From contig JAAYQC010000103.1 in NCBI GenBank assembly GCA_012519515.1, forward strand, positions 1 to 41,972: 41,972 bases of DNA. The letters run 5' to 3'. The notes under the pieces were generated by a model. The model was not told the origin of the DNA, made no database searches, and was given only the letters and a program-made list of their open reading frames with translations. The position numbers and the translations under genes are program-made. Shown piece by piece: positions 260-41,565 of this stretch (its first letter is position 1; each line of letters begins with the position of its first letter). The stretch comes from Bacteroidales bacterium. GTDB taxonomy: Bacteria; Bacteroidota; Bacteroidia; Bacteroidales; VadinHA17.

Positions 260-1324
260 TTAATTCCTTTTCAATGTAGAGCCATATTCGTTTAACACCT
301 TGATAGCTTCCTCGCGGCCATACAGTTCAAAATAGTGTTGATGTAACATCCATGTGGCAAAAGAGGTAAAAGAGCGTATCCCTAAATTTCGGTACAATTC
401 TATATCACGCCTGCAATAAACAGGATTCCAGGGGACTTTACTCCATTTATCCCTATCCCATGAAGAGAACATGGAGGCATCCAGCCAATATTCCAGCACG
501 TGTGCGGTTTCTTTCGGGAAAACTTCCAGGTTTTCTTTCAATGCTGAATATAGTTCGGAAGATAAGGGTACTTCATAATTTCGTTTAATTGGCGCGAATT
601 CGAGGAATATGCCTTTATCCGGTTTTATGTTTCCCGGGGCTTCTATTGTGCTCCTGTATGCTAAGTGGGCTAAAGTGGCTTTGGGATTAACTTTACGAAT
701 AATCTTTAACATCCTGTTCTCGTAAATTAAAGCTTGCTCACTTTGTGAATAAGATTTACATAAGTCACAATGACAAAATCCATCGGGAGAATCGTCAATC
801 CAAAAGAAATAACGATTTGTAGTCGGTTGCATCCATTCAAGCAATCCGTTTACATTTTTTTCGATAACGCCCCAGGCTTCCTCTGAGGAAAAACAGATAT
901 TGAGATCGTTTCTTCTTTCGCCATTGCTATCCATTCGAAAATATTCAGGATGATTATCAAATAAGGAGCGAGGCAGGATTTCTTGCAACACATGACATTC
1001 ATATTCCAAATCTATATTGTTTTTTTTGCATAAGTCAATTAATAATTGACCCTCGGGACCTTCAAGGAATACTTTCAAGCTATCCAGGTTTTCCGTTAAA
1101 GTATTGGAATGTAGTCCTAGCAGATTAATATCCGTCTTTTTCAAAATGTCAATAAGCTTCTCTGATCCGAGAGAGCGTATATCACTTGGATACAAAACGA
1201 TTCCGCGGAAAGCCTCCTTTGAATTTGGTGTTACACTACAACTGCAATAAAAACAAATCGGTATGAGATATGACAAAACAGATGTAATAAAATATAGTCT
1301 ATGCTTCATATGCTTATTTTTCAT
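260..1324 (-). CDS. DUF4838-type lipoprotein, putative glycan-acting protein
   Basis: The product has 354 residues. It opens with a basic and hydrophobic signal ending in a Cys pair (C27, C29) that could be a weak lipobox. M6 is an equally possible start. The body has the features of DUF4838 proteins, which are glycoside-hydrolase-like (alpha-glucuronidase/GH20-like TIM barrels) in polysaccharide-using bacteria. These are NICFSSEEAW near 142-151, then WIDDSPDGFCHCDLCK at 175-190, combining acidic residues with a C-x-C-x2-C cluster. A catalytic role for the DD pair and zinc binding by the Cys cluster are inferences. The gene is followed after 23 nt by a CBM9-like lipoprotein and is preceded by a dispersed repeat element in the same orientation. 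The substrate cannot be read from the sequence. Confidence 0.65.
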   Translation of the reverse strand: MKNKHMKHRLYFITSVLSYLIPICFYCSCSVTPNSKEAFRGIVLYPSDIRSLGSEKLIDILKKTDINLLGLHSNTLTENLDSLKVFLEGPEGQLLIDLCKKNNIDLEYECHVLQEILPRSLFDNHPEYFRMDSNGERRNDLNICFSSEEAWGVIEKNVNGLLEWMQPTTNRYFFWIDDSPDGFCHCDLCKSYSQSEQALIYENRMLKIIRKVNPKATLAHLAYRSTIEAPGNIKPDKGIFLEFAPIKRNYEVPLSSELYSALKENLEVFPKETAHVLEYWLDASMFSSWDRDKWSKVPWNPVYCRRDIELYRNLGIRSFTSFATWMLHQHYFELYGREEAIKVLNEYGSTLKRN

Positions 1325-1329
1325 CAGTA

Positions 1330-1379
1330 TATAATTTTTATTTCAATGGTCTGATCATAATATAATTTTTATTTTAATG
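1330..1379. repeat. Two 19-bp imperfect direct repeats
   Basis: The A/T-rich 19-mer at 1330-1348 recurs at 1361-1379 with one mismatch (C/T), spaced 31 bp start to start. Both lie between the DUF4838 start codon and the dispersed element at 1382-1465. This could be a local duplication or a tandem protein-binding site, but low complexity makes chance similarity possible. Confidence 0.5.
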
Positions 1380-1381
1380 TA

Positions 1382-1465
1382 TGATGCCTGTCTATCGGCA
1401 GACAGGGAGTCTATATGTTTGAAAATTAAATATATACGTGTTCGTGTATTTGATACATGTGGGTT
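1382..1465 (-). repeat. Dispersed intergenic element, copy A
   Basis: Read on the minus strand, 1465 to 1434 is a 32-nt block matching 40384-40415 at 30 of 32 positions. The following 52 nt align with the second copy without gaps but more loosely. This copy ends in a hairpin with arms CCTGTCT and AGACAGG (1387-1406 on the plus strand). The aligned length, 84 nt, is the same in both copies. It points toward the DUF4838 gene, whose start codon is 58 nt downstream. It resembles a small palindromic interspersed element or a structured leader. I do not recognise a named family. Confidence 0.75.
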
Positions 1466-1492
1466 TTATAATCACAGGTATTCATAAATTAC

Positions 1493-2650: not shown

Positions 2651-3301
2651 ATGACAAAAAGGATAATAACAGCATTGATAATCTTAATTGGCTTAAAATC
2701 ATACGGACAAGATGATAAAAAGCAGTTTATAGGATTGAATGTTTTACAATTGCCGGCTTCAACTATTAATTTCAATTATTCGTTCGGGTATAAACCATTC
2801 CTTACCCCGACAATTGACATTGGATATGCATTTGGATATAACCAGAATTACGATTTGATTGGCATCTTTCTGACACCGCACGTTAAATTGTATGATGGTT
2901 ATTCGATAGATAAACAATCAGGCGTATACCTTAAGCTTGGAGGATATTTTAATCTGCGTAAGGACTTTGAAAGACAAAATTTCTTTCATCTCGGATTATT
3001 CTTAACAAATTCAATTGTTCATGAGAAAGGATTGTATTTATCTCCGATTGATTCAAGACCATATTCTTATGCAGACAAGATTGAGCACACAGTTTTCTTA
3101 TTTGGTATTAGCTCATCACTTGGATACGAATTTAAACTAAGTAGTCGGTTAAAAACACATATTGACTTTCAGCTTTCGTTTCCAACTGACAAATATCTGG
3201 ATCTGTACGGTTACTCTAATTTTATTCCCGGAATGGGGTTTAAGGATACGGAGGGAAAATGGTTTCCAATGGTGATATTAAACTTAAAATACATATTATG
3301 A
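2651..3301 (+). CDS. Outer-membrane beta-barrel-like protein, unknown function
   Basis: Starting at ATG 2651, the product is 216 residues. It opens with a clean signal peptide, MTKRIITALIILIGLKSYGQ, cleaved after GQ as is common in Bacteroidota. An upstream in-frame ATG at 2621 would place ten extra residues before the signal and is less likely. The mature part alternates polar and aromatic or hydrophobic residues in strand-length stretches (INFNYSFGYKPF, TPTIDIGYAFGYNQNY, VYLKLGGYFNL, LGYEFKLSSRLKTHIDFQLSF) and ends MVILNLKYIL. These are typical of small 8- to 10-stranded outer-membrane barrels. There is no recognisable family motif. A strong hairpin terminator lies downstream. Confidence 0.65.
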   Translation: MTKRIITALIILIGLKSYGQDDKKQFIGLNVLQLPASTINFNYSFGYKPFLTPTIDIGYAFGYNQNYDLIGIFLTPHVKLYDGYSIDKQSGVYLKLGGYFNLRKDFERQNFFHLGLFLTNSIVHEKGLYLSPIDSRPYSYADKIEHTVFLFGISSSLGYEFKLSSRLKTHIDFQLSFPTDKYLDLYGYSNFIPGMGFKDTEGKWFPMVILNLKYIL

Positions 3302-3346
3302 ATTTTGCAAATATGAGGGAGAATGTAGGGCGGGGGTAGTTTGTTC

Positions 3347-3386
3347 AAATAACAAGCCACTGAATTCCAGTGGCTTGTTATTTTTT
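3347..3386. terminator. Bidirectional hairpin terminator
   Basis: A 16-bp perfect stem (3347-3362 with 3368-3383) around the loop AATTC is flanked by A and T runs on both sides. It lies between the plus-strand barrel gene and the minus-strand tRNA-Asp and is positioned to end both transcripts. Confidence 0.85.
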
Positions 3387-3390
3387 GTCG

Positions 3391-3464
3391 CGGTGCGGAC
3401 GGGACTCGAACCCGCGACCCCCGGCGTGACAGGCCGATATTCTAACCAACTGAACTACCGCACC
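3391..3464 (-). tRNA. tRNA-Asp (GTC anticodon)
   Basis: The minus strand reads a 74-nt cloverleaf. The acceptor stem is GGTGCGG/CCGCACC with discriminator G, the D-loop has AGTTGGTTAG, the anticodon loop is CCTGTCACG (anticodon GTC), and the T-arm is CGGGTTCGAGTCCCG. The discriminator G and GTC anticodon fit aspartate. CCA is not encoded, since the genomic sequence continues CGA, so it must be added enzymatically. A hairpin terminator follows at once. Confidence 0.96.
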
Positions 3465-40333: not shown

Positions 40334-40381
40334 TGATCAGAGCGTTTTAATCAAATAAGCTATAAACCATCTTTCGAATAT

Positions 40382-40467
40382 GGAACCCACATGTATCAAA
40401 TGCACTAACACGTATTTATATAGTATTCAGTCATGTGGGTTCCCCTGCCCGAGTGGGGCAGACATCT
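40382..40467 (+). repeat. Dispersed intergenic element, copy B, in the serC leader
   Basis: The 32-nt block 40384-40415 matches copy A (1465-1434) at 30 positions, and the rest aligns over the same length. This copy folds more strongly. A perfect 12-bp stem GGAACCCACATG (40382-40393) pairs with CATGTGGGTTCC (40432-40443). A second hairpin, CTGCCC/GGGCAG (40445-40461), follows at once. It lies in the predicted serC 5' leader, ending 27 nt before the start codon. Confidence 0.8.
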
Positions 40468-40494
40468 TACCATTAAATTAAAAATTATATACTG

Positions 40495-41565
40495 ATGAAG
40501 AAACATAACTTCTATGCCGGTCCGTCAATACTTTCTCAGTACACACTGGATAAGACAGTTGAAGGGATCAGGGATTTCGCGGGTACGGGTCTTTCGGTTC
40601 TTGAGGTCTCGCACAGGAGCAAGGAATTTGTTGCCTGCATAAACGATACAATGGCGCTAGTAAAGGAGCTGCTTGAAGTTCCGGAAGGCTATAAGGTCAT
40701 TTTCCTCGGAGGAGGCGCCAGTATGCAGTTCACAATGGTTCCGATGAACCTGATGAATAAAAAGTCGGCTTACCTTAACACCGGAGAGTGGGCAGGCAGG
40801 GCTCTCAGGGAAGCCCGCTTCTATGGCGAAGCTGTTGAGGTTGCTTCTTCAAAAGACAAGATGTTCAATTACATACCTAAGAACTACGTGGTTCCGGCCG
40901 ATGCCGACTACTTTCATATAACTACTAATAATACCATTTACGGCACAGAACTGAAAAAAGATCCGGATGTAGGTGTCCCTCTTGTTGGCGACATGTCATC
41001 CGATATCTTTAGCCGTCCGGTTGATGTATCGAAGTATTCGGTTATTTATGCCGGCGCACAGAAAAATATTGCGCCCGCCGGTGTGACACTCCTTATTATA
41101 AAGGAGGATGCTCTGGGTAAAGTGTCGAGGCCAATCCCCACAATTCTCGACTACCGCAGTCATATCAAAGCTGAGTCGATGTTCAATACTCCGCCTGTAT
41201 TTGCCGTTTTCGCTGCTCAGCAAACTCTTCGCTGGCTTAAGGAACTCGGCGGTGTCAAGGCTATTCAAAAGATAAACATTGAAAAGGCAGCCATGCTCTA
41301 TGACGAGATTGACAGGAACAAGCTTTTCGTTTCAACAATAAAGGATCCGGAGGACAGGTCGCTCATGAATATCTGCTTTGTCATGGCTGAAGAATACAAG
41401 GATCTTGAGCAGGCATTTGTTGATTTTGCCAAATCGAAGGGAATAATTGGAATTACAGGTCATCGTATAGTGGGCGGTTTCCGTGCTTCGACCTATAATG
41501 CACTGCCCGTGGAAAGCGTTAAAGCGCTTGTCGATGCAATGAAGGAATTTGAAGCCAGAACATGA
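40495..41565 (+). CDS. serC: Phosphoserine aminotransferase
   Basis: This 356-residue PLP enzyme of serine synthesis begins [18 protein letters not shown], the usual SerC start. The PLP-binding lysine is in [15 protein letters not shown] (K190). The N-terminal [11 protein letters not shown] and [15 protein letters not shown] glycine loop and the C-terminal [19 protein letters not shown] complete the match. It converts 3-phosphohydroxypyruvate and glutamate to phosphoserine. In many Bacteroidales serC is followed by serA then a DUF1015 gene. Here DUF1015 comes directly, with no serA between. Confidence 0.96.

Follow-up and report, generated by a model that had tools for sequence, protein, structure and literature searches.

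Hairpin elements that reach the start codons of unrelated genes in a Bacteroidales genome: a probable mobile element with an ATGAA target

The window, by which we mean the entire stretch of 41,972 nucleotides analysed here, lies on contig C40 of the draft genome (3.2 Mb in 255 contigs, 97% complete) of an uncultured Bacteroidales member. Two of its genes are preceded by copies of a repeated element: a gene for a DUF4838-domain protein on the minus strand (copy A) and serC on the plus strand (copy B), whose closest relatives are found in Bacteroidales MAGs. A unit of this element is about 118 bp long (range about 98-125 bp, with one subfamily at 152 bp) and consists, in order, of the word ATGAAA, a long stem-loop (hp1), an optional G+C hairpin (hp2), an A/T-rich stretch and a pairing that closes this stretch (hp3). 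The features are as follows, with bit scores from the covariance model R1.

260..1324, minus strand: gene behind copy A, 354 aa, with a DUF4838 domain (PF16126, E 9.3e-19); start codon at 1324-1322
1325..1355, minus strand: second unit, lacking hp1 and nested at the end of copy A, with an ATCAG box and a CTG before the gene's ATG
1353..1469, minus strand: copy A, a full-length unit with the degenerate left codon ATA and a decayed hp1 (99.3 bits over model positions 1-118, R1 having been trained with copy A included)
1354..1385, minus strand: hp3 of copy A, the ATCAT box (1385-1381) paired with ATGAT (1358-1354), a pairing that covaries over the copies
1387..1406, minus strand: hp2 of copy A, of the CCTGTCTGCCGATAGACAGG type
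1408..1417, minus strand: 3′ arm of hp1 of copy A, decayed (CATATAGACT)
1456..1465, minus strand: 5′ arm of hp1 of copy A, AACCCACATG
3391..3464, minus strand: tRNA gene, the window's single Rfam match at gathering score
40380..40497, plus strand: copy B, a full-length unit with its left ATG at 40380-40382 (124.8 bits, copy B likewise among the training copies)
40384..40393, plus strand: 5′ arm of hp1 of copy B
40432..40441, plus strand: 3′ arm of hp1 of copy B
40443..40461, plus strand: hp2 of copy B, CCCTGCCCGAGTGGGGCAG
40464..40497, plus strand: hp3 region of copy B, with the ATCTTACC box, an A/T-rich stretch and CTGATG; triplet mismatched
40495..41565, plus strand: serC (phosphoserine aminotransferase), 356 aa, Aminotran_5 at E 2.8e-34; the gene name comes from the sequence-only reading and from relatives

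The two copies had been noticed through a match of 30 out of 32 bases between 1465-1434 on the minus strand and 40384-40415, which we reproduce; in six single-base shuffles of the window, each searched on one strand, the 32-mer reached 18-20 matching bases at best. Copies A and B share 64 identical positions among 94 aligned, and they are the sole covariance-model finds within the window, with two weak opposite-strand shadows besides (E 0.047 and 0.081). Both contain the hairpins that had been described. In copy B, hp1 is intact, the fold has a z-score of -4.58 and the hp3 triplet is mismatched (CTT with CTG); in copy A, hp1 is decayed and both hp3 triplets pair. The earlier proposal that copy A is a decayed long stem agrees with its 3′ arm, which differs from CATGTGGGTT by transitions only. 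The distances of 58 and 28 nt to the start codons were also correct. The proposed extent of about 84 bp captured the similarity and drew the boundaries too short, as both units continue to the start codon: the right ATG of copy B (40495-40497) is the start codon of serC. This reach to the start codon is the element's most telling feature.

The element is abundant in its own genome. A blastn search with copy B returned 50 rows, comprising 40 places at E ≤ 1.4e-8 (copy B itself counted) and ten further rows at E ≥ 0.0136, mostly on the opposite strand over copies already listed. R1, which was built from 41 own-genome copies and then used to find own copies, placed 69 at E ≤ 0.0064 among 92 rows up to E 1, and 60 at E ≤ 0.01 under stricter filters. 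The 3′ module, when searched for with at most 3 mismatches, occurs at 53 places, and a reversed-pattern control gave none. The idea that the two leaders resemble one another by chance or by A/T-rich convergence could be entertained while just two copies were visible; faced with the shuffles, which stay at or below 20 of 32, the 69 places and the empty control, it is refuted, and we give it practically no weight. Searching the genome with a covariance model, the check suggested in the sequence-only reading, yielded many copies upstream of unrelated genes, the outcome which that reading had named as deciding for an interspersed repeat.

The anatomy is shared among these copies. The hp1 stem has 9-10 bp, its loop contains the words ACACAAAC and ATGAA or similar, and a TTC follows. 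The optional hp2 takes the form CCCCGCTTGAGCGGGG, CCTGTCTGCCGACAGGCAGG or others and is missing from some copies. The 3′ part runs (C)ATNNNACC, about 20 A/T-rich bases and N′N′N′ATG, so that hp3 is a pairing of AT-NNN with N′N′N′-ATG. The left codon is ATG in 54/69 own copies and in 93/108 copies from other genomes, and the right word is ATGAA in 57/69 and 98/108, respectively. The 3′ module occurs also without hp1, and many such modules give the visual impression of internal deletions (in L156, for instance, ATGAAAC passes straight into the module). Unrelated hp2 forms, CCCCGCTTGAGCGGGG or CCTGTCTGCCGACAGGCAGG, occur within the own genome (L008, L011, L014, L114), as if a separate palindrome had been exchanged inside the element. 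A 150-152-bp form, found in L388, L390 and L393 of genome G067 and in L392 of G072, has its hp1 loop enlarged by a further palindrome, ACCGAGCTTGCGAGCTCGAC, and is nearly identical between places, a recent burst. Degenerate heptad arrays (of the CCCTGTG/CCCTGAG/CCCCGTG type) lie just before genes in L010, L019, L153, L161 and L164, and some of them adjoin the element.

We quantified the pairing in two ways that are independent of any hand-set alignment. From 177 copies, 18 that do not end in ATG and 48 without a recognisable AT-NNN-ACY box were set aside, leaving 111 for hp3. In 84 of these 111 copies (22/35 own, 62/76 others), the triplet that follows the AT of the box is complementary to the triplet preceding the final ATG; 2000 shuffles gave a mean of 23.4 and a maximum of 40, and shuffles within genomes a mean of 47.3 and a maximum of 63. 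The pairs include CAT/ATG, CCG/CGG, CAG/CTG, ACG/CGT, GTG/CAC, CTG/CAG and GCG/CGC, among others. For hp1, at least 8 of 9 arm positions pair with the partner in the same copy in 99 of 152 copies, as against 25% when the arm is taken from a copy of other sequence. From one genome to another, AACCCACAT is replaced as the arm by AACACCCAT, AACATCCAT and AATATCCAT, the partner side changing to match, and the arm AACGAGCAT pairs poorly. RNAalifold on the raw alignment recovered only 5 pairs; the three stems were then set by hand from one copy, and counts based on that alignment lean towards its structure. The copies are related, and each covariation count is a count of non-independent events. The earlier claim that the fold is kept while the sequence changes, made from two copies, holds in both counts.

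We next consider where the element sits. Where at least 200 nt follow the copy, the right ATG is the start of a reading frame of 50 or more codons in 59/67 own copies and in 80/108 sampled copies from 20 other genomes, the latter taken from stretches chosen by score. Six copies were excluded from the counts (L213, which contains N, and L216, L221, L239, L366 and L388). As a crude background, sites outside gene interiors in 281 kb of the own genome are start-like at 83/187 ATGAA (0.44) and 42/78 ATGAAA (0.54), where the gene calls are rough (213 ORFs in 281 kb) and the start-like count is generous. Against this background, binomial probabilities are 1e-13 to 2e-9 for own copies and 4e-10 to 1e-5 for the others. 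The excess at start codons reflects retention as well as targeting, and insertions inside genes may have been purged. The right flank is ATGAA in 128/139 copies at starts and in 26/36 of the others, while the first ATG is ATGAA in 42/160 background ORFs. Since copies away from reading frames also end mostly in ATGAA, the target is more likely a DNA word than a working start codon that is recognised as such. These 36 of 175 copies have no ORF of 50 codons or more directly behind them. At least 5 are the first members of stacks, and in own copies C48 and C152 a reading frame follows after 40-90 nt.

With an ATG at its left end, the element might instead work through an upstream reading frame, a short peptide starting at the left ATG whose end is coupled to the gene's start. 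In 14/53 own copies that frame does stop in a TGATG overlap with the gene's ATG, an overlap that other genomes do not preserve. In a set of 145 copies, the frame ends within 20 codons in 60, between there and the start region in 37, near the start in 32 and past it in 9, and is fused to the gene in 7. Across 37 copies there is no third-position bias (84/100/94 changes; 87 silent versus 69 expected), and a conserved peptide from the left ATG is rejected for this lack of codon-position bias. We regard the upstream-frame explanation as very improbable.

Comparison with relatives reveals the sites without the element. At serC, none of 80 relatives' loci has a model match, and the 35 leaders inspected each present a short A/T-rich leader before the ATG (locus L087, with just 26 bases ahead of the gene, is little informative). 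At gpmI, 2/30 loci are filled upstream of the gene, the own one and that of G032, with a weak hit in L289 lying elsewhere and an N in the leader making L284 little informative. The nearest gpmI relatives, in G076 (91% identity) and G072 (88%), are both empty, and the own leader can be aligned along theirs up to the left ATG. The own and G032 elements differ in form (with versus without hp2), which means either two insertions at one codon or losses. At a cytochrome gene, 1/12 loci is filled and the G072 leader lines up to the left codon. In all three cases, the native leader ends where the element begins and relatives lack the element there. The left codon of the cytochrome-gene copy is GTG. 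Its reading as a retained native GTG start is ruled out, because relatives have ATG at that position, and decay is therefore a better explanation for left codons other than ATG than the retention of a native start.

Positions are also specific to species. Behind the relatives' copies, 52 of 59 proteins, which were picked by pattern and may include a few opposite-strand shadows, lack a match of at least 75% identity to any of 60 own element-bearing genes; the other 7 involve 5 of the 60 own genes. None of the 7 copies compared in G076 shares an own element-bearing gene. One of the seven matching cases, contig C44 of G067, is a contig-end fragment with the element and a gpmI start 93% identical to the own one, and the same assembly holds a full gpmI elsewhere that is 86% identical; the fragment possibly derives from a contaminating organism closely related to the window's species. 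Stacked units with one common ATG occur in G028, G104, G322, G213 and the own genome. Copy A is one such stack, in which a full unit with a decayed hp1 is followed by the unit without hp1 and then by the gene; the second unit (1325-1355) would be a second insertion whose hp1 and hp2 were deleted. Near-identical copies within one genome are found in G032 and, in the 152-bp form, in G067.

These positions bear on a cis-acting regulatory RNA, in which the leader binds a protein or metabolite, gates translation through a paired start codon and has spread because it is useful. Uniform orientation, a seat before genes and covarying stems are all consistent with such an RNA. Over 158 copies, the right ATG has a predicted mean unpaired probability of 0.21, compared to 0.70 for the left ATG, and the median fold z-score is -2.64 over 175 copies. 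Signal-peptide-like proteins stand behind 41/59 own copies, versus 42/160 background ORFs. However, this excess stems largely from ATGAA starts (22/42 background ATGAA ORFs), own copies fold only modestly (median z -1.97), and most positions vary from one close relative to another, with only the 7/59 relatives' copies noted above at a gene shared with the own genome. The genes behind six scanned copies are unrelated: serC, gpmI, Sir2, an amino-acid-kinase-family protein, SusD and DUF4838. A regulon of one pathway is ruled out by these unrelated genes and varying positions. Of the two suggestions in the sequence-only reading, a REP/MITE-like family thus stands, with many copies before unrelated genes, and a structured regulatory RNA, in the sense of a regulon, is not supported. 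We judge the regulatory-RNA explanation to be improbable.

In its place, we consider it highly probable that the element is a non-autonomous mobile DNA element that inserts at ATGAA, above all at start codons, and re-supplies the gene's leader and start codon. Comparison of genomes finds a precise seat at three genes, species-specific positions, ATG-sharing stacks and pairing kept despite base changes. Insertion would take place between the native leader with its ATG and the rest of the gene. The element brings its own A/T-rich translation-start region and ends in ATG, and the reading frame behind it consequently stays intact. It would be transcribed as a 5′ leader from the native promoter, and translation of the gene would restart at the new ATG, behind a hairpin and, by prediction, partly base-paired with the CAT/AT box. 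We expect changed, perhaps lowered or buffered, expression of the gene rather than a conserved switch.

The mobilising enzyme may act in trans and read single-stranded hairpins, with the box comparable to an IS200/IS605 guide sequence; this proposal draws on the pairing seen here together with what PMC5934647 and PMC6006769 describe, in the parts consulted, for IS608 and REP. A narrower form of the mobile-element explanation names that enzyme as a Y1 (HUH) transposase acting on an IS200/IS605- or REP-type single-stranded DNA element, with the AT-NNN box as guide and N′N′N′-ATG as the cleavage site. The box pairs with the unit's end and both change together, and paired guide and cleavage tetranucleotides are given as a hallmark of the IS200/IS605/REP family in the portions of PMC5934647 and PMC6006769 available to us. 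PMC6006769, to the same extent, describes a Bacteroidetes enzyme subclass whose flanking structures are atypical and recur elsewhere in the genome, together with a subclass 1.2 that lacks known structures. Y1_Tnp genes occur in 30/36 genus genomes. However, none is found in the own genome, a draft that holds the most copies, nor in G076 or G213, and the element is absent from all of 20 + 30 Y1 loci; two of four stretches chosen for nearness do contain one. IS608, moreover, goes in next to its tetranucleotide, in contrast to the ATG found at both ends here, and only on the other strand would the guide fall on the correct side of hp1. A linked Y1 mobiliser is rejected, given the lack of linkage at 50 Y1 loci and of Y1_Tnp in those three genomes, and this narrower form as a whole appears doubtful. 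The own genome may have such a gene that the draft misses, or may have lost the enzyme after the burst.

Other movers fared no better. Reverse transcriptase (RVT_1) is found in 2/14 genomes and not in the own one, and is rejected on that absence. We saw no long autonomous form and found no parent transposon. As separate observations, the Y1_Tnp proteins of L266 and L267 have a Y..NQ/TQ..HH motif that, as we read it, resembles the orphan subclass 1.2 as covered in the consulted part of PMC6006769, and beside their genes lie tandem repeats (L266 at about 600-1900, L267 at about 3050-3450) whose frames give repeated 'TNRSPLWGSG' and 'RTPHAAN' peptides.

The element is frequent within its genus and sparse beyond it. 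It occurs in 28/35 other members of the genus and in 0/24 other genera of a first set. Across Bacteroidales, scoring the best 12 candidates per genome, it is found in 23/295 genomes and 19/183 genera, the own included; phylum-wide, with the best 9 candidates scored per genome, it is found in 4/395 genomes, the own and three besides. The copies in those three (G547, G539, G472) have the same layout at E 4e-5 to 8e-4. Five phylum-wide copies were inspected: behind two lie ORFs of 142 and 365 codons, behind the other three ORFs of at most 37. Rfam at E ≤ 10 returned 8 rows for eight loci with copies, all chance families far below gathering scores, including RF03535 (E 2.4), which overlies the L326 copy, and for the window nothing but the tRNA. 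With the queries used, phages gave no match to one own copy and plasmids none to a 70-base piece of a G032 copy; viral contigs gave no match to the two exact patterns of the AACCCACATG subfamily that were tried. A phage or plasmid vehicle is rejected on these searches. Literature titles and abstracts, with thin coverage of subscription papers and preprints, do not name such an element, and we found no description of this family of tiny hairpin elements in Bacteroidota.

Several known systems resemble the element in part. HEARO / IscB omega-RNA elements insert next to ATGA or GTGA and have a structured RNA. They are much longer and have a protein partner, and the element has no Rfam match beyond the chance families at E ≤ 10. 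REP/REPIN sequences with RAYT (TnpA-REP) are likewise short palindromic repeats in many copies, without coding capacity and with covarying stems. REPs, however, have a GTAG-type foot and lie anywhere between genes (PMC6006769, as far as seen), whereas the element has ATG ends, a single orientation, a start-codon seat and no Y1 gene in its richest genome; the left foot of hp1 is ATGAA in the 152 copies used, with no GTAG. IS200/IS605 elements and their non-autonomous derivatives share the subterminal hairpin and apparently the short fixed target, and the box that pairs with the unit's end may correspond to their guide and cleavage site; the element differs in having no linked tnpA, its target word on both sides and a rebuilt translation start. 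The presence of ATG at both ends points to a duplication of 3 bp or, alternatively, to an ATG that travels with the element.

MITEs (Correia, RUP, ERIC and others) are also small, non-autonomous and A+T-rich with species-specific positions, and the element shares their filled and empty sites, many copies and lack of coding capacity. It appears to differ in having none of the classical terminal inverted repeats that go with a variable target duplication; its ends are ATG and ATG, and its palindromes are internal only. The consulted portions of the MITE reviews PMC10969869 and PMC2229807 do not mention 'start codon'. Rickettsia palindromic elements are similarly small and palindromic and leave host genes readable. 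They lie in frame inside reading frames and have a conserved peptide (PMC10969869, in part), in contrast to the element's start-codon seat without one.

The genome comparisons show an insertion that is specific for ATGAA and carries a replacement start. A broader proposal, tentative and in our judgement a serious possibility, is that a Bacteroidota mobile class spanning several orders uses the start codon as a safe harbour: it would target ATGAA, supply a replacement start, comparable to the tRNA-gene 3′ ends that many integrases restore, and carry a start-complementary box (CAT-NN/N′N′-ATG) that may act twice, guiding the next insertion at the DNA level and locking the start codon in the mRNA.

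Translation in Bacteroidota starts mostly without Shine-Dalgarno pairing (PMC3155529 and PMC8710568, in the parts seen), and what makes a start codon work there is accordingly an open question. The family provides natural experiments on it, in which one replacement start region stands before dozens of unrelated genes whose orthologues in relatives are unmodified. Gene annotation is affected, as each insertion leaves two candidate starts about 115 nt apart and a long new 5′ leader. Through the covarying box that pairs with the start codon, a guide or lock role can be put to a direct test, and the element would be a mobile element that targets a functional landmark of genes.
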